Assembly (NCBI GenBank): GCA_016182605.1
Contig: JACPGE010000016.1
Span: 1-64,000, forward strand
Reading direction: 5' to 3'
Length of the DNA: 64,000 nt
Origin: Candidatus Hydrogenedentota bacterium
Lineage (GTDB): Bacteria; Hydrogenedentota; Hydrogenedentia; Hydrogenedentales; JAEUWI01
The number at the start of each line of letters is the position of its first letter. The first letter of the stretch is position 1. The notes below the pieces were generated by a model that searched no databases, was not told the origin of the DNA, and worked only from the letters and a program-made list of their open reading frames with translations. Of this stretch, positions 168-34,280 are shown one piece after another. Position numbers and translations under genes: made by a program.

Positions 168-989
168 CTACAGCGCGGCCATCGCGCCAGAGAGTCCAGC
201 GAAGACTTCCGATACAGGGAATTGGCCCGGGAATTTGATGAACTCCACGTGGCCATCCATGAAGAGCACATTGCTGCCGCCGGGCACGTGGTTGTACGAC
301 GAAGCGGTCTCACCCAGCCAATCCCAACTCGTCGGAATGGTGCTTTGCGCTTCGGCGGATCCGGCAGCGTTGTTGATATCGGTGATGAAGAAACGCTCGA
401 TACCTTCTCTAAGACGGAAAAATGTAAAGTCGCCCAGCACCGGATCGTCGTCGATGCTCAGATCGTCATCCGGATCCAGCAAGCCGCCCAGCAGTTGGAT
501 GACCAGATTGGAACCCGCCGTTACCTGCTCGTCATTAATGATCGCCCATCCCAGGTAGATGTAGCTGATACCGTCAAAACAATCGGGAATGGGATTGCCT
601 TCGGCGTCGTTGAAGAGGCCGGTGCCGAACGGGCCGCCGTCGTAAAACTCGGAAAAATTGTCTCCGTCAGACGGGCACATCATGATGTTGATGTCTGAGA
701 GATACTCCGGATAGATCGCGGTGCCATGGGGTGTTCCCGCGAAGGCCGCCACGGCGTCCGAGTTTGAACAGTAGGTCAACGGATCCATCACCGGCGGAAA
801 CTTTCCCCCTTTCGATTCGTTGGAATACATCTTGAAAACCAGGCCGAATTGCTTCAGGTTGTTCTGACAGCTCGATCGACGGGCCGCCTCCCGGGCGCGC
901 GCGAGCGCCGGCAGCAGGATCGCTGCCAGGATCCCGATGATGGCAATAACCACCAGCAATTCAATAAGTGTAAAACCTTGCCGTTTCAT
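168..989 (-). CDS. Type II/IV pseudopilin-like protein with DUF1559 domain
   Basis: A 273-residue protein that starts with a class III prepilin signal: [19 protein letters not shown], with cleavage expected before the Phe and a Glu at mature position 5. A hydrophobic helix follows, ending in [14 protein letters not shown] and then the [10 protein letters not shown] segment typical of the DUF1559 group. The C-terminus has [21 protein letters not shown], a variant of the H-X9-DG motif with one extra residue between His and Asp. The family is expanded in Planctomycetes, Lentisphaerae and Hydrogenedentes and its role is unknown; it probably assembles in or is exported by a pilus/T2SS-like machine. 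Start chosen at 989 because AGGAGG lies just upstream and the prepilin signal must be N-terminal. It lies 67 bp downstream of the TetR gene on the same strand. Confidence 0.9.
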
Positions 990-1056
990 TACTTCTTTCC
1001 TCCTGCAACTATGATTGCTTTGCTCTGTGTCGTCACGGTGTGGCAAACGCCACGGA

Positions 1057-1821
1057 CTACGCCCTGTCTCCATACCACTGTCCTTCGCCATACAGCCGCT
1101 GCGACTCCTCCGGAAACACGCTCTGGCGAATCCGCGCGAGGCTCTCCTCGTAGTCCCACTCACTAAAGAGGGGACGCCACCCATAGGCGTCTGCCGCACG
1201 ATTGAAGTAGCGCCAAACCTTGGAGAGCGGCTCCTTCGCATTCAGCGCCTGCTGCGCGATGCCCGATTCGATCAACGTGAATCCCCCCTCCAGCAAGCCC
1301 CAGCTTCCCAGCACGATCTCGTCCAGCAACTCGTCGTCGCCCGCCGCCAGGTCGCCCACGCGGACCGACTCTGCCAGAATGCCGCGCGCAATCCGGATCA
1401 CCTGCCGCTCCGCCTCCATCAAGGCCGCCACCCGCAGGGGCGATGCCTTCTGATGCACCGGCCCCATGGCGTTGTGCAAAATCTGGGAATCCTCCGCATG
1501 CAGGCGGCTGTACAACGAGATGCCCTCGGCGAGCGCCAGAAAGCGTTCTCGCGGCCGTCCCTCAAACGCCGCCCCCCGCGCCATCATGTCGTTGCGCCGT
1601 TCCAGGCAGGCCGTGGCAAGCGCCACGAGGATGTCTTCCTTGGAAGCAAAGCGGTGATAGACCGTCCCCTTCGGGCAGTTGGCGGCTTTCGCAATCCGAT
1701 CCATGGAAACGCCGTAGTAGCCCTGCTCCAAAACCAGCACCCGGGCCACAAGCAGGATTTCTTCATCGCGTTGAAGCAACTGGGTCTGTTTAGGAGAAAG
1801 TCGATGCACGGTTGGTTTCAC
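1057..1821 (-). CDS. TetR/AcrR family transcriptional regulator
   Basis: 254 residues. The N-terminal helix-turn-helix is clear: [20 protein letters not shown] then [16 protein letters not shown], the usual TetR recognition helix followed by the Tyr-x-x-Phe-x-x-K motif. The remaining ~180 residues form the variable ligand-binding/dimerisation part, which gives no clue to the inducer. It lies directly upstream of the pseudopilin gene (67 bp) on the same strand, so the two may share a transcript. The upstream space (1838-2172) may hold its own operator. A slightly long C-terminal tail ([16 protein letters not shown]) has no recognised function. Confidence 0.9.
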
Positions 1822-2172
1822 TCCAATCTTTTTCGGGTGCTGAAATAGCCATTTCTGGACTTTTCGTCAGCTTTTAGTTGACTTATAGCTGAGAATACGC
1901 GAAGCGGTGCGCCAAGTCAAGCACTCTTTTCCGGAAATCGCACTTTCAAAGCTACTTTTCAATGAAAATTGCCCACCCCAAAAAAACAACCTTGGAAATA
2001 AAACAGGGAAATCACGATTGGACCCTCAGAATCGATTGGAATGCCTGGATTCCCACAGATACGGCGACCCATTCACCCAGGCGAAGGGGGCGCTGCTGCC
2101 GGCGTACTTGGCGGAGCGCTGAAACAGTGGGCAGAAGTGAATGGTGAGCCCGAATCCAATTTCGGCAAGGTG
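1822..2172. other. Intergenic space between the TetR gene and an unknown gene
   Basis: About 350 bases with no supported gene. The stretch around 1866-1893 is AT-rich and includes TTAGTTGACTTATAGCTGAG, which has a short dyad (CAGCT/AGCTG) and lies 45-70 bases upstream of the TetR start. It could be the regulator's own operator/promoter, but this is only a guess. The rest shows no terminator or repeat that I can support. Confidence 0.3.
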
Positions 2173-2640
2173 TTACGATACGCTGTCGAAGGCGCCGCAA
2201 AGCGCCTCGTAGTAGGCTTCCTGCTCCATCTGAACCAGGCCCGCGCCGTACTTCTCGCAGAGATTCGTATTGGCGATCTGGCCATAGTTGATGGCCGCGG
2301 CAACATAGGCAACGAAGAGCGGGAGCAACTCCGGGTGGTCCTCGAAGCGGGTGGCGATGTGAAGCTTGCAACAGCGGCCCCCCTCGTCGCCGTCGAAAAA
2401 AGGCTCGGCGAACTGATGCTCGTCGATACCCTCGTCGGAGAAGACCAGCGATGTGGGGTAGCGCAGACAATCGGGATCGGAGAGGAAGGCGGCCAGGTTG
2501 CCCTTGTCGAGCGGGCCGCCAAGTTTCGCCACCGTACGCTCGACCGCGCGCTCGGCATGATCGAGCAGCAGCGCATCGAGCGCCTCAATGGAGGCTTCTT
2601 CGCTCATATTCAACAGTGGATCGTCTGCGGGTTCGTGCAT
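2173..2640 (-). CDS. Unknown acidic protein downstream of the octaheme cytochrome
   Basis: 155 residues if the ATG at 2640 is used; a longer frame to 2724 exists but would nearly abut the upstream stop, and its first 28 residues look non-conserved. The protein is acidic, has no signal peptide or membrane segment, and matches no family I recognise. It has a lone Cys-Cys pair (GGRCCKLHIATRFEDHPEL) and an Ala/Tyr-rich helix (FVAYVAAAINYGQIAN). It is the last gene in the direction of the cytochrome operon, 99 bp after the octaheme gene, so it may be co-transcribed and could be an assembly or accessory factor. That link rests on position only. Confidence 0.6.
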   Translation of the reverse strand: MHEPADDPLLNMSEEASIEALDALLLDHAERAVERTVAKLGGPLDKGNLAAFLSDPDCLRYPTSLVFSDEGIDEHQFAEPFFDGDEGGRCCKLHIATRFEDHPELLPLFVAYVAAAINYGQIANTNLCEKYGAGLVQMEQEAYYEALCGAFDSVS

Positions 2641-2739
2641 GGCGGCATTGTCGCGTTTTGGCGGCGTGGTGTCAACAGGCAAGGAGCGCGGCGCGGAATG
2701 CCTTCCGCGCCGCGGCTCCTGCACTGAGTTGAAATGCGC

Positions 2740-4182
2740 TCAGTTCTTGTACCGATCCTGGAACTCTTTCATGCGCTGTTCGCGCTCGGCCTTCTCGGCA
2801 GGATCCATCTTGTTCAGATACCAGTTGTGGTTGCTGGAATTCAGAATCTCGTCCAGCTTGGCGTGAAGGGCATCCGCCGCCTGCACCTTTGCCGCATCGC
2901 CAGAAGCGCGCCCCTTTTCAATGAGTTCTTCGAGCTGGGGCACGAACTCGGAATAGAAGTGCTTGGCCACCTCGTAGGTGCCATGCCAATGCGTGATGTC
3001 CGGCCCCATCATGGAGACGCCATGACGCGCGCGGCGCCCTTCGTGGTGCCAGATTTCGTACCAAGTCCAGTCGATCTCGTTGGAAAACTCCACGGGCTTC
3101 ATGAGCGGCTTCGCGAGCGCCATGAGTTCCAGGCCGGGCTCGGCAAACTTCTGATGGTACAGATCCAGCAGGCCGTCGTACTGCAGATAGAACGAGGTGA
3201 CATAGTCTTTGTTGTGGCAATTGAGGCACACATTCTCCATGTTGGCGCGGCGCACCTCCCAGGACACGTCCGCACCAGGGAGCCCAAGCTTCGCGTCGGA
3301 GACTTCCGGGCGGATGGAGATGGCCGGGCGGTTGTTCCAACTGATGCGCATGCCCACATCGTGGGTGACCGGCTGGTCTTTCGTCGCGCTCATGTGGCAC
3401 GTGGCGCAGGTTGGCGCGGCGCTGTAATCTTCGCCCACCACCCACTTCGGACTGGAGAGGTTCATCTTGTCGATGTTCGCACGGAACGCGATGCCATGCT
3501 TGGATTCGTTGTAGATCTCGATCTGCGGGTGGTCCGGGCCCATGTGGCACTTGCCGCAATTCTCCGGCTGCCGCACCTGCTCCACACTGAAGGCGTGGCG
3601 CGAGTGGCAGGCGCTGCACGACCCTTCCGAACCGTCGGGATTGATACGCCCGATGCCGGAGTTGGGCCACGTGGCCGGGTCGAGCTTGCCGTTCTCCATC
3701 ACCTTCACTTCCGAACCGTGGCATTGCCAGCAGCCGTTTACCGCGGCCGCGGAAACGCCCATGGGGAACATGGGCGTGATGAAATTGTTGTTGCCCTCCA
3801 CCACCTCGGCGAGCGTGTTGTCCAGCGATCCCAGAATGCGCGCGGCCTTGGAGTGGTGAGAGGCCGTGAACTCGCCCACTTCCTTCTCGTGGCAGCGTCC
3901 GCAATCCTTGGGGCTCACGATCGTGGAGATCAGTTCGCCGTAGTGTTCGTACACGTCCGGATCTTCCTTCTCCGCCTTGTGGCACTCGAAGCAGGCGATA
4001 TTCCCGCGGAAGTGCTTGCTGTCGCCCCACTGTTCGTAGATAACGGGGCTCTCTTTCTTGTGGCACTCGATACACAACGCGGACTGGGGGGAAACCTCCG
4101 CGAGCATGTACCCGGCGGCGCCCGCGGGGCCGGCGGTCAGCGCCGCCAGCATGGCGAACAGCACGATCAGTTCGTTCTTCAT
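2740..4182 (-). CDS. Octaheme c-type cytochrome, hydroxylamine oxidoreductase (HAO) family
   Basis: 480 residues with a Sec signal peptide (LIVLFAMLAALTAGPAGAAG), so periplasmic. Eight CxxCH haem sites: CIECH 37, CFECH 64, CGRCH 94, CWQCH 151, CSACH 189, CGKCH 209, CATCH 259 and CLNCH 319. The distal helices after haem 8 carry WHHEGRRARHG and MMGPDITHWHGTYEVAKHF, the region of HAO that bears the tyrosine cross-linked to the catalytic P460 haem in ammonia oxidisers. Here that position seems to be Ile (GPDITHWHG), by alignment from memory. HAO relatives lacking the tyrosine are thought to work reductively (nitrite or hydroxylamine to ammonium). ATG overlaps the NrfD stop (ATGA), so translation is coupled. 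It is most likely the catalytic subunit of a quinol-linked complex. Confidence 0.88.
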   Translation of the reverse strand: MKNELIVLFAMLAALTAGPAGAAGYMLAEVSPQSALCIECHKKESPVIYEQWGDSKHFRGNIACFECHKAEKEDPDVYEHYGELISTIVSPKDCGRCHEKEVGEFTASHHSKAARILGSLDNTLAEVVEGNNNFITPMFPMGVSAAAVNGCWQCHGSEVKVMENGKLDPATWPNSGIGRINPDGSEGSCSACHSRHAFSVEQVRQPENCGKCHMGPDHPQIEIYNESKHGIAFRANIDKMNLSSPKWVVGEDYSAAPTCATCHMSATKDQPVTHDVGMRISWNNRPAISIRPEVSDAKLGLPGADVSWEVRRANMENVCLNCHNKDYVTSFYLQYDGLLDLYHQKFAEPGLELMALAKPLMKPVEFSNEIDWTWYEIWHHEGRRARHGVSMMGPDITHWHGTYEVAKHFYSEFVPQLEELIEKGRASGDAAKVQAADALHAKLDEILNSSNHNWYLNKMDPAEKAEREQRMKEFQDRYKN

Positions 4183-5447
4183 GATACCTCTCCTTTTATG
4201 GCCGCATCAGTGGCCCGGGGGACCCCTGAATCCTTCGAAAATGTTCCGTTCATGATGGGTATGGCCAGGTGCACCATCCACGAAAAGAGGAGCAGGCCAA
4301 AGGCCCAGATCCCGACGCACACAAGCACCTCGTTCACACTCGGCAGGTACTCGACGATATTCCCAAGCGGCGTGGGGATGAAGCCGGGAATGATGAGGCC
4401 CATGCCCTTCTCAATCCAGATGCCCACAAACGCAAGCACGCAGGCCACGTTGAGGAAGCCGCGCCGGCGCGCCACGGGCGGCGTGATGAGGATGGCTGCG
4501 GCGATGACTTCCATGACGATCGCCGTCCAAATCCAGGGCACGAGCAGATCGTAGGTGTGGCCGTTGTGCTCCAGGCCAAAGAAGAGGTACTGCGCCGACG
4601 CATTGTGAAGGGCGGCCGAGTAGAACTCCTTGAAGGCTTCACAGAAGAGCATGAAAAGATTGATGAGCAGCGACGCAGTGACAATCTGCCGCAGCAGGGT
4701 GTAGGCGTCTTCACTGACCTTCAGGTGGCTGAGGCGCTCCATGATCTGAAATGCAATGATGAGAATGCCCGGTCCGGCGGTGAAGGCAGAACCCAGGAAA
4801 CGCGGCGCCACGATCGCGGCGTTCCAGAAGGGGCGGCCAACGAGGCCCACATAGAGAAACGCCGTGACCGTGTGGATGCTGACGGCCCAGGCGATGGAGA
4901 TGAAGACGAACGGAACATAAAAGAGCGGCGTGGGTTTGCGCTTCATGTATTTCATGAAGAGCAGGTAGCCGCAGATATGGAGATTCAAGACCAGGTAGCC
5001 GTTCAGCACGATCACGTCCCACGAGAGCAGCGAGGTGGGAAAGTTGAACTTGCCGATCCAGGGAATCAGGTGCCAGAACCGATCCGGGCGGCCGAGGTCC
5101 ACCATGACAAAGAGCAGACACATGATGATGGCGGCGATAGCGAGCAACTCGCCATAGAGCACGACATCGTGCATGTCCTTGTTGCGGTAGATGTAGGCAG
5201 GAATGACCAGCATCACGGAGGCCGCGGCGACGCCGACGAGAAAGGTGAAGTTCGCGATGTACGCCCCCCAGGAAACCTGATCGGTCATACCGGTGGCCGC
5301 GAGACCATCGACAAACTGCCGCGTGTATGCGTTGCCGCCGATGACGGTGATTACGGTTAGGACCGCCATCCACAGGTAGAACTGGCGGGTGCCGTCGAAA
5401 CTCAATTGGAAGGCGCGTATCAGAAACCGGACGTATTCTTTGATCAT
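4179..5447 (-). CDS. NrfD/DsrP-like integral membrane quinol module
   Basis: 422 residues, about ten hydrophobic helices, belonging to the NrfD/PsrC family that exchanges electrons between the quinone pool and a partner ferredoxin subunit. Seen in the sequence: FYLWMAVLTVITVIGGNAYT helix 1, a conserved VDLGRPDRFWHL loop, and a C-terminal SWMVHLAIPIMNG. Start set at 5447 (MIKEYVRF), 10 bp after the ferredoxin stop, rather than the upstream ATG at 5501, which would overlap the ferredoxin gene. The stop overlaps the octaheme cytochrome start by four bases. Together with the ferredoxin it forms the NrfCD-type membrane half of the predicted complex. Confidence 0.92.
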   Translation of the reverse strand: MIKEYVRFLIRAFQLSFDGTRQFYLWMAVLTVITVIGGNAYTRQFVDGLAATGMTDQVSWGAYIANFTFLVGVAAASVMLVIPAYIYRNKDMHDVVLYGELLAIAAIIMCLLFVMVDLGRPDRFWHLIPWIGKFNFPTSLLSWDVIVLNGYLVLNLHICGYLLFMKYMKRKPTPLFYVPFVFISIAWAVSIHTVTAFLYVGLVGRPFWNAAIVAPRFLGSAFTAGPGILIIAFQIMERLSHLKVSEDAYTLLRQIVTASLLINLFMLFCEAFKEFYSAALHNASAQYLFFGLEHNGHTYDLLVPWIWTAIVMEVIAAAILITPPVARRRGFLNVACVLAFVGIWIEKGMGLIIPGFIPTPLGNIVEYLPSVNEVLVCVGIWAFGLLLFSWMVHLAIPIMNGTFSKDSGVPRATDAAIKGEVS

Positions 5448-5457
5448 CCCCGTGCCC

Positions 5458-6381
5458 TCACTTGTCGAAGTAGTAGAAGAACCGGGGGATTGTCCCCGCA
5501 TCTTCTTTCAGAATGTAGACCCGCTTGTTGCGAAGGATGAAGCTGATCTCGCTGTCCGGGTCGAGCATGTTGCCGAAGACCCGCGCCCCCGTGGGACACA
5601 CCTCCATGCAGGCCGGGTTCTTGCCCTGGCGCGTGCGGTGCAAACAGAAGTGACACTTCTCCACCACGCCGCGCGGCCGGATACGGTTGCTCAGGTAGCC
5701 CATCTCCGGGTTGATCTCTTCCTTCGGAATCTCCGGCTCGGAGAAGTTGAAGCGCCGCGCTTCATAAGGGCATGCCGCCATGCAATAGCGGCAGCCGATG
5801 CACCAGTTGTAGTCGATCACCGTGATGCCGTCGGATTCGGTCCAGGTCGCCTCCACGGGGCAAACCTTCGTGCAGGGCGGGTTCTTGCATTGCTGGCACT
5901 GCACGGGCATGTAGAATTTGCCGTCCTGCGGCACTTCCTCATGCTCGTAGTAGTGATCCGATTTCTCCACGTTCAGCGATCCGCTCGGCAGCTCCAGCAC
6001 CTTGATATACTGAATCCCCGGATCGTGCGACTGGTTGTTTTCTTTCATGCAGGCATACACACAGCGGCGCGAACCGTTGCAGCGCGTGAGATTAAGCGCG
6101 TAACCAAACTCGACGCCTTCAATGGGCTTGTAATCCTTGATGTTCACCCGCGCGCCGTAGCGCACGGCAATCTCCGTCTCCAGGCGCTTCATGATCACGT
6201 CCAGATCTTCGGGGCTGAGGCGCTTGTAGTGCTGCTGCAAGAACGCGCTGAGGCTCGTGCCCAGCTTCGAGTTGCGCAACGGCTCCAGCACGCCCGCGGC
6301 CGCCGCAATGGCCGCCATCGTGCCGATGCCCGCCTTCAAAAAACTCCGCCGGCCGCTCGTGGGCCGTATGGCTTCACTCAT
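5458..6381 (-). CDS. Tat-exported ferredoxin subunit with four [4Fe-4S] sites (NrfC/HybA/DsrO type)
   Basis: 307 residues. The N-terminus carries a twin-arginine signal (SGRRSFLKAGIGTMAAIAAA), so the folded protein is exported. Four cysteine sets are visible: CNGSRRCVYAC, CQQCKNPPCTKVCP, CIGCRYCMAACP and CHFCLHRTRQGKNPACMEVC, the pattern of NrfC/HybA/PsrB-like subunits that pass electrons between NrfD and a periplasmic enzyme. The ATG overlaps the stop of the upstream tetraheme gene (ATGA), and NrfD follows after 10 bp. The usual catalytic partner in NrfABCD would be the pentahaem NrfA; in its place this operon has the octaheme protein. Confidence 0.92.
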   Translation of the reverse strand: MSEAIRPTSGRRSFLKAGIGTMAAIAAAAGVLEPLRNSKLGTSLSAFLQQHYKRLSPEDLDVIMKRLETEIAVRYGARVNIKDYKPIEGVEFGYALNLTRCNGSRRCVYACMKENNQSHDPGIQYIKVLELPSGSLNVEKSDHYYEHEEVPQDGKFYMPVQCQQCKNPPCTKVCPVEATWTESDGITVIDYNWCIGCRYCMAACPYEARRFNFSEPEIPKEEINPEMGYLSNRIRPRGVVEKCHFCLHRTRQGKNPACMEVCPTGARVFGNMLDPDSEISFILRNKRVYILKEDAGTIPRFFYYFDK

Positions 6382-7004
6382 GACGTGGCCCCTTCTGACT
6401 CGTGGCGCCCGCCGCCTCCCGGACGCGCTTCAAAGCGCGAATAGGGCGGCGGTGGATCCGGGATCATGGGTTTGAAAGCCGGGTTGTGGGGATCGTGGCA
6501 CTGCACGCACAGCAGCCGCTTCGCGGGCTTCTCCGGGCCTTCCTGCCAATAGCCGTTTTGACGGCCGTGGACGCCCGCCTCCCACTCCCGGTAGGTCGGT
6601 CCGTGACACTTTGCACAAAGCCGCGCGGGCGTCTCTGCGGGAATAGCTGATCCATCGTGGTTCACATACGCGTTGCGGTCTTCCGTGTGGTGACAATTGA
6701 TGCACCGCGTGTTCATGCCATGGTTAAAACTCTTGTAGATCTCCGCGTGCTCGCCCTGCAGGTCTTGCTGGCGCACCGGATTCTGAAAGTCGGTGTGGCA
6801 CTCCGAACATTTGTACTCGAAACCTGTGCGGCGGTTGCGCAGGGGCCGGTACTCGCCACGGACCGGCGTGGTGTCGAAGACATCGCCATTTAGCGCGCGC
6901 GCATAGACCTCCGCAGGCATCACGGGCTCACGAAAACAGGAACTGCACAGCAAGAGCAGCACGGCACAGGTCATCCCGCCCATAACGCGGCCTGCTTTTT
7001 CCAT
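6378..7004 (-). CDS. Tetraheme c-type cytochrome, probable lipoprotein
   Basis: 208 residues from the ATG at 7004. A longer frame exists, but its first 43 residues are not signal-like. The start MEKAGRVMGGMTCAVLLLL is followed by a Cys in a lipobox-like position (LCSSC), so the protein is probably anchored outside the membrane. Four CxxCH motifs: CSECH, CINCH, CAKCH and CVQCH, plus extra His residues that could act as sixth ligands. The C-terminal 30 residues are Pro/Gly rich. First gene of the operon; its stop overlaps the ferredoxin start. It probably shuttles electrons to or from the octaheme enzyme, or plays the part of NrfB in nitrite reductase operons. Confidence 0.85.
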   Translation of the reverse strand: MEKAGRVMGGMTCAVLLLLCSSCFREPVMPAEVYARALNGDVFDTTPVRGEYRPLRNRRTGFEYKCSECHTDFQNPVRQQDLQGEHAEIYKSFNHGMNTRCINCHHTEDRNAYVNHDGSAIPAETPARLCAKCHGPTYREWEAGVHGRQNGYWQEGPEKPAKRLLCVQCHDPHNPAFKPMIPDPPPPYSRFEARPGGGGRHESEGATS

Positions 7005-7123
7005 TCGGAGTTGTCTCTGCACGTACACGAGCCTCCAGAACTCTAAGGGTAAAGCAACACGCCGGAATAGGCAAGATGCATGCCCTGAAATCGGAAGAGA
7101 CGAACTCACAGGAGATAACCAGT

Positions 7124-7152
7124 TTGACAGCAAGTGTTTATACGTCTATATT
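7124..7152 (+). promoter_or_regulatory. Predicted sigma70 promoter for the aminotransferase gene
   Basis: TTGACA at 7124-7129, a 17-base spacer, then TATATT at 7147-7152. The match to the -35 consensus is perfect and the -10 matches five of six. It points toward the gene at 7343, about 190 bases downstream. Confidence 0.55.
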
Positions 7153-7234
7153 CACTTGTAGACACACGTAATCGCAGACCCATGGAATGTCCAATTTGAG
7201 CACTTGTGCGCTTCCTGAACACTACATAGACGTA
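7141..7234. repeat. Perfect 9-bp inverted repeat across the promoter region
   Basis: TACGTCTAT at 7141-7149 and its exact complement ATAGACGTA at 7226-7234, centre-to-centre about 85 bases (eight helical turns). The left arm overlaps the -10 element of the predicted promoter. This layout suits a repressor that binds two sites and loops DNA, but no regulator gene lies beside it. Confidence 0.4.
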
Positions 7235-7342
7235 AATTAAATGTATCATTTGTACGCAAATCGCGACTTCGCATTGACGCATCGCATGCCACCTGGCACG
7301 CCCAGGGGATTTGGCACCCGAAAATCCGCTACACTCGCGCCC

Positions 7343-8518
7343 ATGAATATCGACACCCTGATCTTCGACGAATCCATACGCCAAGCCGCATTCCCGGTAT
7401 GCCAGGACGGTGCCTACTTCGCCCATGCAGGGGTCGCCCCCTTGCCTGCCGCTGCGGCGCACGCCATCCAGAATTTTCTGGACCAGGCCACCCGCGGCAA
7501 CCAGGAGAGCGTGCAGGCCATGGCCGCCGTGGATTCGGCACGAGTGCTCGGGGCCCGGCTCATCGGCGCGCAGCCGGAAGAAATCTCCCTGCTCGGCCCC
7601 ACGGCACTCGGCTTGAGCCTGGTGGCGCGCGGCCTGCACTGGAACACGGGCGATGAGGTCGTTTTCAACGGAGACGATTATCCGGCGAACGTGTACCCTT
7701 GGCGCTCCCTGGAGTCCTGTGGGGTGAAGCCGGTGGCCCTCTTTCCACAGCAGCCCGGGGTGATCGCCTGGGAAAACCTGGAGCCCCTGCTCACGGAGCG
7801 CACGCGACTGGTCTCACTCGCGAGTTGTCACTTCATCAGCGGCTACCGCATCGACGTCGACGGCATAGGGCGGCGCTTGCAGGCGCGGAACATCCGCTTT
7901 TGCGTGGACGCCATCCAGACGCTTGGGGCCTTTCCCTTCTCCACGGAGCACGTGGACTTCCTCAGCGCCGATTCGCACAAGTGGATGCTCGGCCCCGCGG
8001 GCGCGGGGATCTTTTTCGTGAAAGCGTCCCGCCGTGAAGAGCTGGCCCCGGCGCTATTGGGGTCGTGGAACGTGGTCTCCCCGAACTTCGTTGCGCAGAC
8101 CGCCCTCCACTACGAAGCGGGGGGACGCCGTTACGAACCCGGCATGCTCAATCTGCCCGGCATCGCGGGGATGGAGGCCTCCTTGCGCCTCCTGCTGGAT
8201 CTGGGAATAGCGCCCATAGCGGAACGCTTGCTGCACCTGCGCCGCTACACGCTGAAGCACGCCCGCGCGATGGGCTACCGGCTCTGCCTGGAAGACTGGG
8301 ACCAGAGCGATGCGGCAAGCGATGACGCGCGATCCGCGATCATGGCATTCACCCATCCCACACGCGATCTCACCGCCGATTTCCAGGCGCTCGCGGCGAA
8401 AAGGATGGTCACCTCGCTACGCAAAGATCGCGCGGGCACCGCCTACCTGCGGATCGCGCCGCACTTCTACAACACCGAAGCCGAGATAGACCGCTTGTTC
8501 GAAGTGCTCGCGGGATAG
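7343..8518 (+). CDS. Class V aminotransferase (PLP-dependent, cysteine-desulfurase-like fold)
   Basis: 391 residues from the ATG at 7343; a longer frame begins at 7241, upstream of it, but its extra residues look non-coding. The fold-type I signature is present: FCVDAIQTLGAFPF (Asp189 and Gln192 contacting PLP) and LSADSHKWMLGPAGAGIFFV with the Schiff-base lysine at about residue 213. The protein begins with DGAYFAHAGVAPLP, the usual 'N-terminal house' of the SufS/NifS/isopenicillin-epimerase group. No active-site Cys loop typical of true cysteine desulfurases could be assigned, and no SufE/IscU partner is adjacent, so the substrate is unknown; aminotransferase, epimerase and kynureninase-like roles remain possible. 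Confidence 0.85.
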   Translation: MNIDTLIFDESIRQAAFPVCQDGAYFAHAGVAPLPAAAAHAIQNFLDQATRGNQESVQAMAAVDSARVLGARLIGAQPEEISLLGPTALGLSLVARGLHWNTGDEVVFNGDDYPANVYPWRSLESCGVKPVALFPQQPGVIAWENLEPLLTERTRLVSLASCHFISGYRIDVDGIGRRLQARNIRFCVDAIQTLGAFPFSTEHVDFLSADSHKWMLGPAGAGIFFVKASRREELAPALLGSWNVVSPNFVAQTALHYEAGGRRYEPGMLNLPGIAGMEASLRLLLDLGIAPIAERLLHLRRYTLKHARAMGYRLCLEDWDQSDAASDDARSAIMAFTHPTRDLTADFQALAAKRMVTSLRKDRAGTAYLRIAPHFYNTEAEIDRLFEVLAG

Positions 8519-8536
8519 GGACGAGACGGCTGCGGT

Positions 8537-9109
8537 TCAGAAAAGCAAAAGGCCGAAGTGCATCGAATAAAAGAGGTCTACGAGGGCCAATGGCACCAAG
8601 GCGAGCCACCCTATAAGCCTGAGCGCCCACGTGAGCGGTCGCTTCCACCCTGGAGGCTGGGGACCGGAGTATAGAGCAATACCCCACAAAACTACGGTGG
8701 CTAGCGACATCGCCGACATCGGCCAGTCGGAAAACGGTCGCGGCCCTGCCCCGGCTCCAGTTTCAAGGTCTACCGGTTCCGAGGCGAAATAGGTAAGGCC
8801 GTAGCCTTCGAGTTCTTGAGACTCCGGTACGTATACAACCCACAAATGGAAGGCGGACGTGGGCTGGAGAATCAGGTTGACTTCAAGCAAGTTCGGATCG
8901 TCCTTGGAGCTACGAACAGGTCCCTTCGATTGAATGCGGTGTTCGAGGGCTCTCTCGACATCGGCCACAGTCTTTGTAGATTCATCGCGCAGGACTAGTG
9001 CGCACTCCTCAAGAATGGAAAATCGCTGCATCAGTAAGGCATTTCCGGTGAGATAAAGCGCAAGGAGGATTGCAAAGAAAATGATGCCGGTTCGATCAGT
9101 GGTGGTCAT
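8537..9109 (-). CDS. Unknown membrane protein, paralogue of the 9638-10219 product
   Basis: 190 residues: one N-terminal helix (IIFFAILLALYLTGNALLMQ), a ~90-residue polar domain, and two C-terminal hydrophobic segments. It shares GNALLMQRFSILEECALVLRD and a PVDLETGAGAGPRPFSDW block with the protein encoded at 9638-10219. No known family recognised. ATG at 9109 chosen because it overlaps the stop of the truncated HepT frame (ATGA); a GTG at 9121 is the alternative. The polar domain sits between membrane segments, so it may be periplasmic and sense or bind something. Confidence 0.7.
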   Translation of the reverse strand: MTTTDRTGIIFFAILLALYLTGNALLMQRFSILEECALVLRDESTKTVADVERALEHRIQSKGPVRSSKDDPNLLEVNLILQPTSAFHLWVVYVPESQELEGYGLTYFASEPVDLETGAGAGPRPFSDWPMSAMSLATVVLWGIALYSGPQPPGWKRPLTWALRLIGWLALVPLALVDLFYSMHFGLLLF

Positions 9110-9237
9110 ACATTGACCCACTTGGACGGACGACTTGCATCGAACTCTTCGCGGTCTGTGTCCGAAACGTAGGCTATCGCCTCACGGGCGGCTTCGACAA
9201 TGTGTTGCAGTCGCGTCCGGTCGTCTCTAAGCAGCAT
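9106..9237 (-). pseudogene. Truncated HepT-like toxin (N-terminal 43 residues only)
   Basis: A short frame beginning at ATG 9237, overlapping the MNT gene's 3' end by 11 bases, reads MLLRDDRTRLQHIVEAAREA and continues with YVSDTDREEFDAS, the start of the HepT/DUF86 family (D.eRL..IleAae.i..yv.g.s.eeF). It then hits a stop at 9106 after 43 residues, whereas the family is ~110-140 residues and carries its RX4-6H RNase-like motif further on. The missing part is replaced by the membrane-protein gene, whose ATG overlaps this stop. The toxin is therefore expected to be dead. HepT normally pairs with MNT, which is present upstream. Confidence 0.65.
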
Positions 9238-9526
9238 ATTGGACGACCGCTTTGCGCACCACTTCGTCACGGAATAAATGGCTCAGATCGTTGGGCGTGC
9301 GCATATCCGCCTTTCGCCCCAGGAGCCCGGAAAGTTCCCGTTCCATGCCGCACAACCGCAACATACCGGGAACGCGATCCGGATGAAAGTTCACCAGCAC
9401 ATCCACATCGCTTTCGTCTGAAAAGTGATCGGTAATTACGGACCCGAAGAATGAGAGCTTGACGATATGGTGCTTCTCACAAAATATCGCAAGCTGGTCT
9501 TTGTCTACGTGAATTGCCAATTCCAT
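9227..9526 (-). CDS. MNT-type minimal nucleotidyltransferase (antitoxin of HepT)
   Basis: 99 residues. The nucleotidyltransferase motif GS-X10-DxD is exact: SFFGSVITDHFSDESDVDVL, with the metal-binding aspartates in DVD. MNT proteins add AMP groups to a Tyr in HepT and so neutralise it. The stop overlaps the start of a HepT-like frame, the usual gene order for the pair (MNT can precede HepT), but that partner is truncated. It may now be an orphan antitoxin or act on another protein. The start at 9526 is preceded by GAAGGATA. Confidence 0.85.
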   Translation of the reverse strand: MELAIHVDKDQLAIFCEKHHIVKLSFFGSVITDHFSDESDVDVLVNFHPDRVPGMLRLCGMERELSGLLGRKADMRTPNDLSHLFRDEVVRKAVVQYAA

Positions 9527-9637
9527 GTAAAGGATATCCTTCTCTGCTGGGGATCATAACACGATCCAGGGTGGTTGTCATTTCTGATCAGGAGTAATTC
9601 TGGCGCGTGCAGTGTAATCTCGCGGCACTGCGGCCAT

Positions 9638-10219
9638 TCAGAGATCCAATCCTGAGAGGATCACGTCCAGAAACAGCACCACATCCGCAAGCAGCAGCGG
9701 AACCAAAGCAAGTATGGCGAGCATACCCAAGGGAAGGTAGCGGATCTTCTGCGGCCACTTCGCGAATTGCGTGTCCCGATGCACGACACCGGGCCAAAGC
9801 AACAGCCACAACAGCGATGAGGGTACTGCCAGCCAGTCGCCAAAGAGCCGTCTACCCGCACCTTCTCCCGTGTCGAGGTCCACGGGATCGGAACCCGCAT
9901 GCACCAGCCCGCATTCCTGGATGAGTTGCGTCTCCGGGGCATATACCACCGTCACATGCAGACTCGAAAAACGCCTGAGCTTGAGCATGACCTCCTCCAT
10001 GCCTGGATGAGCCCCGGATGCGCGAACGGGAATTTTTTCCCGGATGAGATGTCCGAGCGATTTTTCCAGGTACGGCAGCGTGGTTACCGATGTGTCTCGC
10101 AGTATCCCGGCGCATTCTTCCACAATGGCGAAGCGTTGCATGATCAGAGCGTTGCCCGAAAAATAGACCCCGAGCAGCAGTACATACACGAGCACGGTCG
10201 ATCTGCCCGGAGTATTCAC
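9638..10219 (-). CDS. Unknown membrane protein, paralogue of the 8537-9109 product
   Basis: 193 residues if a GTG at 10219 is used; AGGGAG lies about 10 bases upstream, and this start gives a length equal to the paralogue (190). A longer ATG frame (to 10339) has an extra, unsupported N-terminus. One N-terminal helix (TVLVYVLLLGVYFSGNALIM), a ~90-residue polar domain with PVDLDTGEGAGRRLFGDW, then two C-terminal helices. Same architecture as the gene at 8537-9109, separated by the MNT/HepT remnant, so the two arose by duplication or one was inserted into the toxin locus. Function unknown. Confidence 0.7.
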   Translation of the reverse strand: MNTPGRSTVLVYVLLLGVYFSGNALIMQRFAIVEECAGILRDTSVTTLPYLEKSLGHLIREKIPVRASGAHPGMEEVMLKLRRFSSLHVTVVYAPETQLIQECGLVHAGSDPVDLDTGEGAGRRLFGDWLAVPSSLLWLLLWPGVVHRDTQFAKWPQKIRYLPLGMLAILALVPLLLADVVLFLDVILSGLDL

Positions 10220-16259: not shown

Positions 16260-16279
16260 GTCCGCTCAAGAACAATTGT

Positions 16280-16318
16280 GCCCGCCGGTGCATCCCTCGC
16301 CGGCGGGCATTTTCTTTC
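16280..16318 (+). terminator. Rho-independent terminator after the beta-propeller gene
   Basis: Stem GCCCGCCGG (16280-16288) / CCGGCGGGC (16300-16308), 11-base loop, followed by ATTTTCTTT. It lies 20-58 bases beyond the stop. Confidence 0.8.
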
Positions 16319-16781
16319 AATCGCCACAATTTTCCCCGGATTATTTTTATCCACCGCCCCAAGATTGCACAGACCCGCAACAAGAACACGTCCGTTTTCA
16401 CCCCCATCAGCAATTCCGTGTCACCCTAAGTTGGGGCCACGAGGCCACAAACAACGGGGCCACAAACCACTTGACACCCAATCCATATTTTGTCACAATA
16501 CTTTCCTATAATCTGGCGTATTTACTTTGAACACTCCACAATGCAATGGTTGTTTATCTGGAACTATGTTGCGTCAATAACGCGAAGTCATGGAGAACTA
16601 CGCTTTGCTTGAGCACGCCAAAAATATTCAATGGCATCGCAATGGCCGCGATTGTCAAAACACCGAACAAATGTCGCGTGATTCCCTTGCGCGGCAACGA
16701 TCTAAGTTCTGGAGCGCCGAATTGTAATAATTCCAACCCTCTTGCAGATTTCTTGATTGCACCAAGACTCGAGGATTCCCG
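16319..16781. other. AT-rich space upstream of the SIR2 gene pair
   Basis: About 460 bases, clearly more AT-rich than the neighbouring genes, with no supported gene; a plus-strand frame of 91 codons exists but looks non-coding. It holds the repeat GGCCACAAAC at about 16444 and 16460, preceded by a related GGGGCCACGA unit, and the promoter elements listed separately. Confidence 0.4.
16471..16512 (+). promoter_or_regulatory. Candidate promoter(s) of the SIR2 pair
   Basis: TTGACA at 16471-16476 with a CACAAT (16494-16499) at a 17-base spacing, and a perfect TATAAT at 16507-16512 (no good -35 at the right distance). Tandem GGCCACAAAC repeats lie just upstream (16444-16469) and could be an operator. 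Confidence 0.4.
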
Positions 16782-18239
16782 ATGGCACGAGAAGACAGTC
16801 GAACGAGGGATGCCGCCGTAGAGCCAACAGATCCGATCGCAGAAGTGGTAGTTTCGAATGTCAGCGGCACGAATGCTACAACCCAGGAAACTACTCCGCC
16901 AGTTGCGAACTTGCCGGATGTGAACCGGCGCGCCATCACTATCATATTGGGCGCAGGCGCGTCGACTGGCGGTGGTTTCAGGACCTTTCTCTCCTTTCCA
17001 CACCTGTTCTGGCCCACTTCGAGCGAGCCTGCCAAACTGGAAGCAACCGAAAAGGAGCGTGCGCTACTGAGGTTTATCATGACGGGGCTTAAGCGGAAGA
17101 AGCGCCCTCTCACGACGGACCAGTTTCTCTGGGTATTGGATGAGTACCACCGCGTGCTCAAGGGCATATTCTCCGACGAGGCCCTTCGAATCCGGTTTTC
17201 CGACTCACTGCTCCTGTGGTCCCGAATTCGCGAACTTAACGCAGTAGTCCAGGGTGTGCTGCGTAGGGTGTGTACCCTGACCGTGAGCCACTACAGTGCG
17301 CCGCCTTCCAAGCATTACGTGGACGCGGCTCGAGAGTTCTATGAGAAGCTTCTGAGAGAAAACCATGACGGCATTGATGTTTTTACAACGAATTACGATC
17401 TTGTGCCCGAGTACCTCTTTTCGCGCAACAAATGGTTCACGAATAGATTAAACAAAGCCTGGGGATGTAAAGAAGACACAGACACAACATGGCCCGCCTT
17501 ATCCAACAGTGACCCGGGGGGGAACGAACCTTCCGATGACGGCCAGGGAACAGGCTGGCCCACCTTTTACAACGGATTTGCTGACTTCGACAGTCTGGAA
17601 CTTGCCGGCGATGACTCTCCAGATAATGTATTGGAGGAAGGCCCCTCGGTCAAGGGATCTGACGATAATGAGTGGAGCGAAATAAACTATTCGCAGACCA
17701 CTGCGCCGCGCGCCATCCGCCTCTACCGTTTGCATGGCTGCGTCGCATGGTACTACCGCGAACAACTGGAAAATGCCCCCGTCTACTTCAACAGTGATGG
17801 CATCACTTCAATCGGAAGCTACTACAATAAACTGTGCGTCATGTACCCCGGACGAGAACAAAATGTGGGCTGTAGACCTCACAACCTCGCCTTTCGCCAG
17901 CTCTACCATGCAGCATTCACCTCCAACTTCCTCATTTTTATCGGCTTCGCATTTCGGGATGCCGACGTTGTTGCCGCCGTGTTTAACGCAGTCTACTGCA
18001 GAATGCTCCTTCCCGGCAGTACCGGGAAGAACAAGATGCATATTTTGATCTATGACCCATTTCTGGATCAGAATATTTTCGAGCGGCGCATAAAGCAGCT
18101 CGAACGATCTATTGCCGTCCCCTTGGCGGAAGTCTGCAAACAAATGACGATCCACGTTATTCGCTTCCCCTTTCCATCACCGGAAGGCTGCGAGCAGCTT
18201 TTGCACGTCCTGACGAAAATGGGCAAACAAGCTCACTGA
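16782..18239 (+). CDS. SIR2-domain protein (predicted NAD-consuming effector)
   Basis: 485 residues. After a ~45-residue low-complexity N-terminus, the SIR2-like fold shows its landmark motifs in order: IILGAGASTGG (57-61, NAD loop), DVFTTNYD (202-206), RLYRLHGC with the candidate catalytic His 318, and FIGFAFRDAD (387-393, usual IG-S/F-F-R-D). This arrangement is typical of the SIR2-like NADase/hydrolase domains in bacterial anti-phage systems, not of histone-type deacetylases (no Zn-finger). Start at 16782 is preceded by GAGG. It ends 13 bases before the next gene's preferred start, so the two form an operon. The DNA is AT-richer than its neighbours, indicating a mobile block. Confidence 0.82.
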   Translation: MAREDSRTRDAAVEPTDPIAEVVVSNVSGTNATTQETTPPVANLPDVNRRAITIILGAGASTGGGFRTFLSFPHLFWPTSSEPAKLEATEKERALLRFIMTGLKRKKRPLTTDQFLWVLDEYHRVLKGIFSDEALRIRFSDSLLLWSRIRELNAVVQGVLRRVCTLTVSHYSAPPSKHYVDAAREFYEKLLRENHDGIDVFTTNYDLVPEYLFSRNKWFTNRLNKAWGCKEDTDTTWPALSNSDPGGNEPSDDGQGTGWPTFYNGFADFDSLELAGDDSPDNVLEEGPSVKGSDDNEWSEINYSQTTAPRAIRLYRLHGCVAWYYREQLENAPVYFNSDGITSIGSYYNKLCVMYPGREQNVGCRPHNLAFRQLYHAAFTSNFLIFIGFAFRDADVVAAVFNAVYCRMLLPGSTGKNKMHILIYDPFLDQNIFERRIKQLERSIAVPLAEVCKQMTIHVIRFPFPSPEGCEQLLHVLTKMGKQAH

Positions 18240-18252
18240 AGGAATGTCATTT

Positions 18253-19353
18253 ATGCCTCATTCCGACGAAAGACAAAACACCGGCTTCTTCGAGAGCAGA
18301 ATTCACCGGCGGGTTTTCACCAAGTATGCTGTCGCCTTGAGGGCCGCTGCGTTGCTGCGGGAGGGCGACGCCATTCTCATCGACGCCGGCACATCACTTA
18401 CCCCAATTGCCAAGATTATTGGGCGTATCGCCGATCAACCAGAACAGAAATGGACGCACTACACTATCATGACGCATAATAATGCCGCTTTCGATCCCCT
18501 CTCTAACGCTCCCCCAAATGCGCGGCTCAATGTTTTTCAAACCGGGGGCCGCTATGATCGCGACTTGAATGCTTCGTTTGGCCATCAGGCTGAAATGGCT
18601 TATTTGCAATATCATCCTCGGTGGGTGTTCATAGGACAAAACGGCATCGAAGCTGATCTCGGCCTCTTCTGTCATGGAAACACGGAAGAACTCGCGCTGA
18701 AACGGGAAATCTTTGCCATGCCAGCTTGGGGACGCGTTATCGTAGCCGATTTCACCAAGATCGGCAGCCCCGGCGGTCTGGTCTTCGGCGCTTCGGAGAA
18801 TCTTACGACGAATGTGAACGTGTGCGTCATCGTAACTGACGATCCACACGACGGCCAGTTTCGCCCACCCGAATCACAAAGCACATCGTACACCTCCGGG
18901 CGCAGTCCAAGAACTGCTTCGGAGAACTTCGAAAACCAGGTGCAACTGCTCAAGGAAACGTATGAATCTTGTGTCCTGGCGGTGCATTTTCGCGTTCACA
19001 ATCTCACGAAGAAGGAAAACGGCGGGAACACCAGTGAAATTAAATATGAGGATGCGGGTTATGTCGATCCTAAATCATCAGAGATCCTCCGGCTCAATTG
19101 CCAAAGAGTGGAAGGCTGTTATCGAATACACCTGACGAAGGATGATACGACAAACAAGGCTCCGTTTAAGCCCGAGTTCGATATTGCCACTTCGCTTGCC
19201 TATGTAGACTTGGAAGTCAAGAATGATGAAAGCATTGAAGTATTGCAGGTGGAACTCTTCTGGGACGACGACGGAGTGCCAAAACTTCAGCGAGAAGCCG
19301 GAATCCCCGGGCTCAACGGCCACGAGAATCCATACGGGTTTGCGGGCTGCTGA
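18253..19353 (+). CDS. DeoR-sensor-like (ISOCOT fold) protein lacking a DNA-binding domain, partner of the SIR2 protein
   Basis: 366 residues. From residue ~23 to ~185 the sequence follows the ligand-binding (C-terminal) half of DeoR regulators: GDAILIDAGTSLTPIA, IMTHNNAAF, LNVFQTGGRYDRDLNASFG, WVFIGQNGIEADLG, GNTEELALKREIF and WGRVIVADFTKIG. In DeoR these loops bind phosphosugars. The winged-helix that always precedes this fold in DeoR is missing: only ~22 residues precede the domain. The remaining ~180 residues are a beta-rich extension I do not recognise. Start: the ATG at 18253 has GAAGGA nine bases upstream, better than ATG 18244 which overlaps that site. It begins 13 bases after the SIR2 stop. 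Inferred role: a small-molecule sensor that controls the SIR2 effector. Confidence 0.7.
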   Translation: MPHSDERQNTGFFESRIHRRVFTKYAVALRAAALLREGDAILIDAGTSLTPIAKIIGRIADQPEQKWTHYTIMTHNNAAFDPLSNAPPNARLNVFQTGGRYDRDLNASFGHQAEMAYLQYHPRWVFIGQNGIEADLGLFCHGNTEELALKREIFAMPAWGRVIVADFTKIGSPGGLVFGASENLTTNVNVCVIVTDDPHDGQFRPPESQSTSYTSGRSPRTASENFENQVQLLKETYESCVLAVHFRVHNLTKKENGGNTSEIKYEDAGYVDPKSSEILRLNCQRVEGCYRIHLTKDDTTNKAPFKPEFDIATSLAYVDLEVKNDESIEVLQVELFWDDDGVPKLQREAGIPGLNGHENPYGFAGC

Positions 19354-32397: not shown

Positions 32398-33054
32398 TTA
32401 ACTTTCGGCAACTAAACGACGCAAACCATCGCGAAACTTACAGAAACTTTTTGAGTCATTAAACTCTACCCCCATGAGCGGGCCAATTTTTTCAGCCCAT
32501 TCGTGCTTTAACTGCCCAGGCAAGGGCCATCCTCTTTTTCTTATGGCCGCAGATCCACCTGGGTAAATCACATCGGCCAGCACCTCCCATGTCCCACAAA
32601 CACTATCTTGAACATACCGGTTGAGCACATTCTTTTTCCCACGCGGATATGCACAAAAAAGTGCTAAACGGTCCCCCAAATACCAAGCCTCCATTTCCTC
32701 TATCGCCAATCGAAACATGACCTTTATCGTCCGTTCGGATCTCGGCACTAACGCATTCAATTCCGCCAAGAACGCAATGCAGTCTTTTCGATCTACATCC
32801 AAAACAACGGCAATCGCGTCTATGCCGGGAGTATTCGCATAACCCTTGAGGATCCTCGCAAGTTGATCCAGTAGTATACGCTTAGACGGGTCCGCCTTAG
32901 GCATGAGCCCTGCTGGCACTCGCCCTATTCCTTTGTATGAATGAATTCTCCACGTATGTAATACTTTTTCCGCATCTAGTATTTTAGGAACAAGCTGCTC
33001 CAAAAGCTTACCGCCCGAACCATCTTCCACCAAGATCTCGACGTGCATACTCAC
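32398..33054 (-). CDS. DUF4276-family protein (TOPRIM-like), second gene of an AAA/TOPRIM pair
   Basis: 218 residues. The TOPRIM-type acidic motifs are visible: ILVEDGSGGKLLEQLV (E-x-x-S-G-x), VVLDVDRKDC (DxD) and the family mark LAIEEMEAWYLGD. DUF4276 proteins accompany AAA ATPases of the OLD/RloA kind and are thought to act as nucleases. Start overlaps the upstream ATPase stop by ATGA, so the two are coupled. The DNA is more AT-rich than the neighbourhood, consistent with transfer. Confidence 0.8.
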   Translation of the reverse strand: MSMHVEILVEDGSGGKLLEQLVPKILDAEKVLHTWRIHSYKGIGRVPAGLMPKADPSKRILLDQLARILKGYANTPGIDAIAVVLDVDRKDCIAFLAELNALVPRSERTIKVMFRLAIEEMEAWYLGDRLALFCAYPRGKKNVLNRYVQDSVCGTWEVLADVIYPGGSAAIRKRGWPLPGQLKHEWAEKIGPLMGVEFNDSKSFCKFRDGLRRLVAES

Positions 33055-34280
33055 CTCGCATCGAGATAGTCACTATACCAGAGACCACCTAAAGGCAGAC
33101 CTTCTGCCACTAGATTTCTTACCATCTCCAGATCTGACACATGTGTTATTTTCGAATAACCTTCGACCCCTTTTTCGAGCATCCAGACTTCGTTTGGGAC
33201 TAACGCGTCGACAAAATAGGGTTGATGTGTAGTAACAAAGATCTGCGGCGCATTCTTTTTGCCCGTAGCATGCGCTCGGAACTCTGATGCCAATGTCTCC
33301 AGGAGCTTGTGATAGAGCCCATTTTCTGGCTCTTCAATACAAATAAATGGGGGCGGCTCAGGGTCAGCCAAGAGCAAAAGATACGCGAATACCTTAAGAG
33401 TTCCATCAGACATTTGTTGCGCAAAAAAAGGATCCTTAAACGCGCCGTCGTTGAATCGCAGTAAGACGCGATTGTCATCAGTCACTTTCGTGTCAATGCT
33501 TCTCACTCCGGGTATTTTGGCTGCGATCTCCGCAAGAATCGAAAGAAACCTTTCCTTGTGTTCACGCTCCATAAACTGAACAACGTTGCCAATGTTGTCG
33601 CCATGTATATTAAGGTGCTTCTGCGGACCTGCAGCTGGCAATCCTCTCGCTGCGTCAGGATAGAAATACGACAGGTACCACCCTTTCAGGAAGTCGCGAA
33701 ATCGTTTTATGCGCGGGTGCTCCCTTAGGGTGCCAAGTGTAGCAATTCCCAATTGCCTCAAATCTGTCAGTTCCATCTCGACTTGAACCCGATCTTCTTC
33801 GCCCTCCACTTCTACCGCATCCTCTCCTGCCCAAACCTTTCCCTTACCGTGTTGGAGCCGCAGAAAAGGAAACGGTCTACCGTGCTTCTGATCTTTACGC
33901 CGCTGCTTCAGCACTTCGGACTCAACGAATGGCCTACCAGATTGATCGAGAGAAATTGCAAGTTCATAAGTTATTGGACGTTCGCCCTTTGCCTCACGAT
34001 AGTAGATCTCGAATCGTATTGAATCCTCGACTCCCGAGGAACGTAGACGCTCATACCCACCACGTTGCTTCATGTCACACGCTGACTCGACATCATGCGA
34101 CAGACAATCAGCAATAAACCCGAACGCGTCAAATAATGTACTCTTGCCTGCCCCATTCTTCCCGATGACAACGGTAAATGGAGTAAGTGGGTCGCTTTTC
34201 TGCTGGTGCGAAAGCTTCCCTAACGTTACATCACGCAACGCTCGGTAATTTTGCACACGAAATCCTTCTATCAACGCCAT
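33051..34280 (-). CDS. AAA (AAA_21/OLD-like) ATPase, first gene of an AAA/TOPRIM pair
   Basis: 409 residues. Walker A VVIGKNGAGKSTLFDAFG (about residue 40), an ABC-like signature QMSDGTLKVFAYLL, Walker B PFICIEEPENGLY and a switch His in FVTTHQPYFVDAL. This is the single-polypeptide SMC-type AAA_21 fold seen in OLD, RloA and AriA. Its ATG is preceded by AGGAGGAATT, a strong ribosome site. Next gene overlaps by four bases. Likely part of a two-gene defence module. Confidence 0.87.
   Translation of the reverse strand: MALIEGFRVQNYRALRDVTLGKLSHQQKSDPLTPFTVVIGKNGAGKSTLFDAFGFIADCLSHDVESACDMKQRGGYERLRSSGVEDSIRFEIYYREAKGERPITYELAISLDQSGRPFVESEVLKQRRKDQKHGRPFPFLRLQHGKGKVWAGEDAVEVEGEEDRVQVEMELTDLRQLGIATLGTLREHPRIKRFRDFLKGWYLSYFYPDAARGLPAAGPQKHLNIHGDNIGNVVQFMEREHKERFLSILAEIAAKIPGVRSIDTKVTDDNRVLLRFNDGAFKDPFFAQQMSDGTLKVFAYLLLLADPEPPPFICIEEPENGLYHKLLETLASEFRAHATGKKNAPQIFVTTHQPYFVDALVPNEVWMLEKGVEGYSKITHVSDLEMVRNLVAEGLPLGGLWYSDYLDAR

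Follow-up and report, generated by a model that had tools for sequence, protein, structure and literature searches.

A two-gene unit with a predicted NADase and a DeoR-type sensor

The stretch analysed here (the window) comprises the first 64,000 nucleotides of contig JACPGE010000016.1 from a Candidatus Hydrogenedentota bacterium (assembly GCA_016182605.1). Two adjacent genes form a separate unit on its plus strand (16782-19353). The upstream gene (16782-18239, 485 aa), identified by its open reading frame, by Pfam and PADLOC models and by profile and fold matches in the PDB, encodes a SIR2-like effector, a predicted NADase. The downstream gene (18244-19353) encodes a protein which resembles the sensor part of DeoR regulators without their helix-turn-helix (HTH). 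Its first ATG, at 18244, lies 4 bases past the SIR2 stop codon and gives a protein of 369 aa. The motif AGGA (18240-18243) is a possible ribosome-binding site for a second ATG at 18253, 9 nt downstream; from this start the protein has 366 residues and follows the SIR2 gene after 13 bases, as stated in an initial annotation made from the sequence alone. The unit is also, as described there, richer in AT than its surroundings. Its GC content is 52.7%, whereas the remainder of the window has 61.7%; GC at third codon positions is 57-62% in the pair and 77-82% in six neighbouring genes. This difference in composition suggests that the pair is probably a recent arrival.

The effector matches a single Pfam family, SIR2_2 (E = 9.7e-07), as well as the SIR2 and Aga_SIR2 models of PADLOC (best E = 1.4e-11). 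In the PDB, our SIR2 profile (A7) matches the SIR2 protein of SIR2-HerA (E = 1.3e-10), and the best fold matches of the structural model are likewise SIR2 chains of SIR2-HerA. All four motifs noted initially lie in the 485-aa frame: GAGAS, the predicted NAD-binding loop (16950-16964, residues 57-61), which does not vary among the five aligned SIR2 proteins; TTNYD (17385-17399, residues 202-206), whose Asn204, predicted to be catalytic, is invariant in the same five; LHG (17730-17738, residues 317-319), whose predicted catalytic His318 is equally invariant; and GFAFRD (17943-17960, residues 388-393), a motif of the SIR2 family present as GxxFRD in five out of five. The hallmarks of SIR2-type NADases, namely the catalytic Asn and His and the GAG(A/C)S loop, are thus all present. 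Mutation of the residues equivalent to the TTNYD Asn and the LHG His abolishes NAD cleavage both in ThsA (N112 and H152; PMC7272460) and in DSR2 (N133 and H171; PMC11290490). Family membership and catalytic residues together lead us to predict that the protein is an NADase.

The second protein matches Pfam DeoRC over residues 26-189 (E = 3.2e-19), and no HTH family of Pfam was detected in it even at E<=10, which agrees with the earlier description of a DeoR phosphosugar-binding core devoid of its winged helix. It matches no PADLOC model. In its AlphaFold model, the core (18319-18843, about residues 26-200) reaches a predicted local distance difference test (pLDDT) of about 80, and a Foldseek search against the PDB retrieves E. 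coli DeoR first (7l6l, E = 5.8e-09, template modelling score 0.73 on the target), in agreement with the predicted DeoR-sensor fold, followed by eIF2B-alpha and ribose-5-phosphate isomerase (RpiA). The stretch Asn-x-Glu-Glu-Leu-x-x-Lys, which includes Glu149 and Lys153, aligns with NLEELPVK of E. coli DeoR; the Arg-Tyr-Asp and Cys-His-Gly of the second protein, in contrast, are new and not found in ordinary DeoR proteins. With DeoR as first fold match and these changed motifs, the ligand-binding lobe is kept, albeit altered, and the DNA-binding half is gone.

The protein and its relatives described below share the motifs DAGTS/DAGSS, THN/TNN, GGRYDxDLNAxFGxQ and GLFCHGNTEEL. The third of these, GGRYDRDLNASFGHQ in the window (18544-18588, residues 101-115), is invariant in all columns but three among the five close members, and the sixth member keeps GGRY...G.Q. 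The fourth (18661-18693, residues 140-150) is invariant save one F/Y position in the same five, and the sixth keeps GLFCHG-EE. The combined signature GGRYDxDLNAxFG...CHGNTEEL is absent from ordinary DeoR regulators and provides a clean handle for searches. The unknown beta extension initially proposed does exist, at the C-terminus (18856-19350, residues 205-369), but covers about 165 residues rather than 180, is poorly modelled with low pLDDT and finds no family match in domain searches. It is shared by the window and L013, a locus in Dethiosulfatarculus, and absent from three short members (L011, L014 and L015), which places it outside the core.

Conservation of the pair

Relatives of the pair were recovered by three routes. 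A motif-directed query based on SIR2 (A1) retrieved one relative from viral contigs, on a virus-like contig (L011), in which the gene following SIR2 encodes a DeoRC protein without HTH. When 84,980 genomes were queried with the sensor, L013, L014 (on a contig labelled Patescibacteria, a label which rests on 3.3 kb) and L015 were retrieved, and a sensor profile applied to 390 genomes from the order to which L015 belongs added L023 in genome G537; the hosts of L015 and L023 both belong to the Desulfobacterales. In each of these four loci, SIR2 lies directly upstream of the sensor on the same strand. Synthetic rows in A1, A4 and A5 steered the pattern search to the motifs and were excluded from all profiles, structures and trees. 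None of the searches made with the single proteins of the window (P0001 or P0002) in viral contigs, phages and plasmids retrieved a family member; among the plasmid and phage matches to the sensor, those with an annotation were ordinary DeoR regulators.

The adjacency of the two genes, which the earlier reading had proposed to survey, thus holds in six out of six loci including the window, always with SIR2 first and the DeoRC gene directly downstream on the same strand; in most of them, the genes are separated by a few bases or overlap. The five further loci are a fair test of adjacency because each query left the partner out, and the six come from unrelated genomes or mobile elements. Conversely, the SIR2 profile applied to the same 390 genomes at E<=1e-12 retrieved the two sensor-linked SIR2 proteins (1e-160 and 1e-134) and only one other, weak match (7e-15), to a SIR2-HerA locus. 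The family sensor is absent from 21 other viral SIR2 loci, within the available DNA of up to 10 kb per side, and from all 22 other SIR2 loci checked in total. Pairwise identities of SIR2 and sensor correlate with r 0.95, for 10 non-independent pairs from 5 loci. In L014, a frameshift near 1888, which could be an assembly error or decay, interrupts the SIR2 frame (1262-2388), and the sensor gene is intact.

The sensors form a family of their own. With the family profile, members reach 309-402 bits and ordinary DeoR regulators stay below 50. The profile was built from its own members, and the fair test is therefore the sensor of G537, which scores 94.6 bits with a profile made without it, as compared with 37.7 bits for the ordinary DeoR regulator of the window genome. 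A small tree places the family apart from ordinary DeoR regulators (support 100/100), the regulators being drawn from one phylum and L023 sitting on a long branch; the L023 sensor is divergent and carries a long charged N-terminal segment, probably coiled. None of the six sensors has an HTH or other DNA-binding domain according to Pfam, so that the predicted loss extends to the homologues. Within the sensor, conservation is highest in the pocket region, which is also more conserved than the effector.

Distribution and genomic context

Beyond the seed genome in each case, no member was detected in 395 Desulfobacterota, 380 Patescibacteria, 68 genomes of the phylum of the window, 63 of the class of L013 or 8 of the family of G537. 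Since only the seeds were found in these taxa, the family must be rare, and such a patchy distribution is typical of mobile defence genes.

Several neighbourhoods point in the same direction. L015 is a clear defence island (214-9880), in which the SIR2-sensor pair is accompanied by NERD, PD-T7-4 (4e-90), a trypsin-like protease with weak matches to LmuA models, bSEFIR (2.6e-66), a transmembrane protein and an AbiGi antitoxin (3e-29). A type I restriction-modification operon lies directly upstream of the pair in L023, and the virus-like contig of L011 carries a primase and an HNH protein. Defence or mobile neighbours therefore occur in three loci and not closely in the window or in L013, six loci being too few for statistics. 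Both L011 and L015 carry a transmembrane gene 3' of the sensor, but the two are unrelated (E = 0.14), and the idea of a third component was therefore discarded.

A dehydrogenase fused to the effector

In L023, a 797-aa protein (7309-9702) has the SIR2 domain as its C-terminal half. The N-terminal half is a complete mannitol-1-phosphate 5-dehydrogenase (PF08125, 3.3e-25; PF01232, 5.7e-10), with 3h2z as best PDB match (2e-28) and the catalytic K-x4-N-x2-H kept. This mannitol-1-phosphate dehydrogenase (MtlD) domain, fused ahead of SIR2 with both of its own domains, has no equivalent in the window system. As the fusion is the sole PF08125 gene of that genome, it is probably not part of a mannitol pathway of the organism. 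Judging from the sensor fold and the recruitment of a phosphosugar enzyme to the same NADase, a phosphosugar is the most likely of the candidate ligands. The initial annotation had placed the sensor in control of a SIR2 defence effector and named ADP-ribose or a sugar phosphate as possible ligands. Fold, adjacency, HTH loss and defence neighbours support the first part; ADP-ribose is not specifically indicated, and the fused dehydrogenase points rather to a phosphosugar.

Function of the pair

We consider it fairly probable that the pair is a rare, mobile and previously undescribed two-gene anti-phage NADase module gated by a DeoR-type sensor. The two genes would move horizontally as one module. 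The sensor domain, having lost its DNA-binding half, would control SIR2 by contact, in the place that HerA occupies in SIR2-HerA, and would most likely respond to a phosphorylated sugar, or to a related metabolite from the nucleotide or sugar pathways, the level of which shifts upon infection; once released, the effector would destroy NAD+. Control by contact is suggested by the strict pairing, the co-divergence of the two proteins and the parallel with SIR2-HerA, and the anti-phage role by the neighbours and the type of effector. Several observations weigh against this proposal. Only six loci are known, one of them with a frameshifted SIR2 gene; in the window, the pair is flanked by genes of ordinary appearance, with the closest other defence-like pair 13 kb away, and L013 has ordinary neighbours and no defence gene. 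The structural models are moderate for SIR2 (mean pLDDT 54.5) and modest for the sensor (mean pLDDT 60), and the dehydrogenase fusion is known from one genome only. A more specific version can be put forward only tentatively. In such a class of bacterial immunity, a sugar-phosphate sensor formerly used in transcription would directly gate the SIR2 NADase, and the cell would detect infection through disturbed phosphosugar metabolism; in one variant the mannitol-1-phosphate dehydrogenase built into the SIR2 chain would make or remove the ligand.

Alternatively, the sensor could be a standing inhibitor of SIR2, removed or titrated on infection as in toxin-antitoxin systems, with a vestigial sugar pocket. 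A compact two-gene unit with tight spacing and a patchy, mobile distribution fits this idea, and a VapC-like gene (recognized by eye) and the AbiGi gene stand beside two of the loci; we nevertheless regard it as unlikely, the conservation of the pocket above that of any other part of the sensor, and above the effector, being hard to square with a vestige. That the second protein is instead an enzyme of the RpiA/eIF2B/DeoR fold, an isomerase-like protein or a hydrolase which makes or destroys the signal for SIR2, seems slightly less likely still. RpiA enzymes and eIF2B-alpha follow DeoR among the fold matches, the family has new invariant residues (Cys, His, Arg, Tyr and Asp) which ordinary DeoR proteins lack, and the effector is fused to a sugar-phosphate dehydrogenase in one genome, but in both sequence and fold the protein is nearest to the non-enzymatic DeoR sensor. 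Finally, the pair could be metabolic and play no part in phage defence, the sensor adjusting a SIR2 enzyme to the carbon status of the cell. Sugar metabolites are the usual ligands of DeoR-type sensors, and the ordinary neighbours in the window and L013 also fit this idea. The rare, patchy and compositionally foreign character of the pair, the defence or mobile neighbours of the three loci above and the match of its SIR2 to anti-phage SIR2 families make this explanation improbable.

Triggers of SIR2 NADases are known for a few systems only, such as the phage tail tube protein for DSR2. If the proposed sensor-gated module is real, a DeoR-type sensor in the trigger position would represent a metabolic trigger for a SIR2 NADase, with few candidate ligands that can be tested in vitro.

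Comparison with known systems

Systems that combine a SIR2 NADase and a partner sensor are already known as a kind; a sensor of the DeoR type is not known in that place. In agreement with the initial annotation, which knew of no named system with this pair, the pair is absent from the PADLOC (2023) models and from the literature searched, in which subscription papers and preprints are largely uncovered. SIR2-HerA (Nezha) and PD-T7-2 likewise consist of two genes, a SIR2 effector and a separate regulator, and the SIR2 proteins of SIR2-HerA and of the window belong to the same broad group according to the best PDB profile and fold matches. However, SIR2-HerA has the HerA ATPase beside SIR2 whereas all six loci described here have the DeoRC gene, and our SIR2 profile gives only 57 bits with the SIR2-HerA locus as compared with 446-538 for intact family members. 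Nezha depletes NAD, and HerA is needed for its immunity (PMC11559045). One SIR2-HerA locus (L030, 8344-11344), from the same GTDB family as G537, is followed by a pentapeptide-repeat-like protein.

Thoeris ThsA is likewise a SIR2 NADase under a Rossmann-type small-molecule sensor, as predicted for the window pair. ThsA carries its sensor, a SLOG domain, on the same chain as SIR2, and the system includes a TIR protein, whereas the window has a separate protein of DeoR/RpiA fold; neither SLOG on SIR2 nor an adjacent TIR ThsB was found in the pair, in which Pfam detects only SIR2_2 and DeoRC. DSR1 and DSR2 are single SIR2 proteins of ~1000 aa with a large helical C-terminal part, as compared with 485 aa here, and DSR2 chains are weak fold matches to the window SIR2 (E 0.04 or worse). 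The Aga_SIR2 models that rank among the best PADLOC matches recall SPARSA (SIR2-APAZ with a short prokaryotic Argonaute), but Pfam and PADLOC revealed no APAZ, and the partner is DeoRC rather than a short Argonaute. DeoR/GlpR regulators share the DeoRC domain and fold, E. coli DeoR being the closest solved relative; the window family differs in lacking the N-terminal winged HTH, in forming its own clade with RYDxDLN and CHG motifs and in always lying beside SIR2.

Other features of the window

A terminator-like hairpin (16278-16310, plus strand) divides the pair from the upstream gene, which ends at 16259. Of the promoter-like sequences initially ascribed to the pair, one good match stands, the weak candidate promoter TTGACA-17-CACAAT (16471-16499, plus strand); the number of such sites is near chance (4, as compared with 2.1+/-1.6 in shuffled sequences). 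No mark of an integration site, either a tRNA gene or convincing flanking repeats, was found in the window. Further downstream, a Ser/Thr-kinase-like gene (43296-44246, plus strand) matches PADLOC PD-T4-6 models (7e-62), possibly for no other reason than the widespread kinase fold. At a distance of 13 kb downstream of the SIR2-sensor pair, a two-gene unit (32398-34280, minus strand) matches HEC-01A and HEC-01B of PADLOC (3.9e-190 and 2.6e-87), an AAA-type ATPase and its small partner, and is a second candidate defence system.
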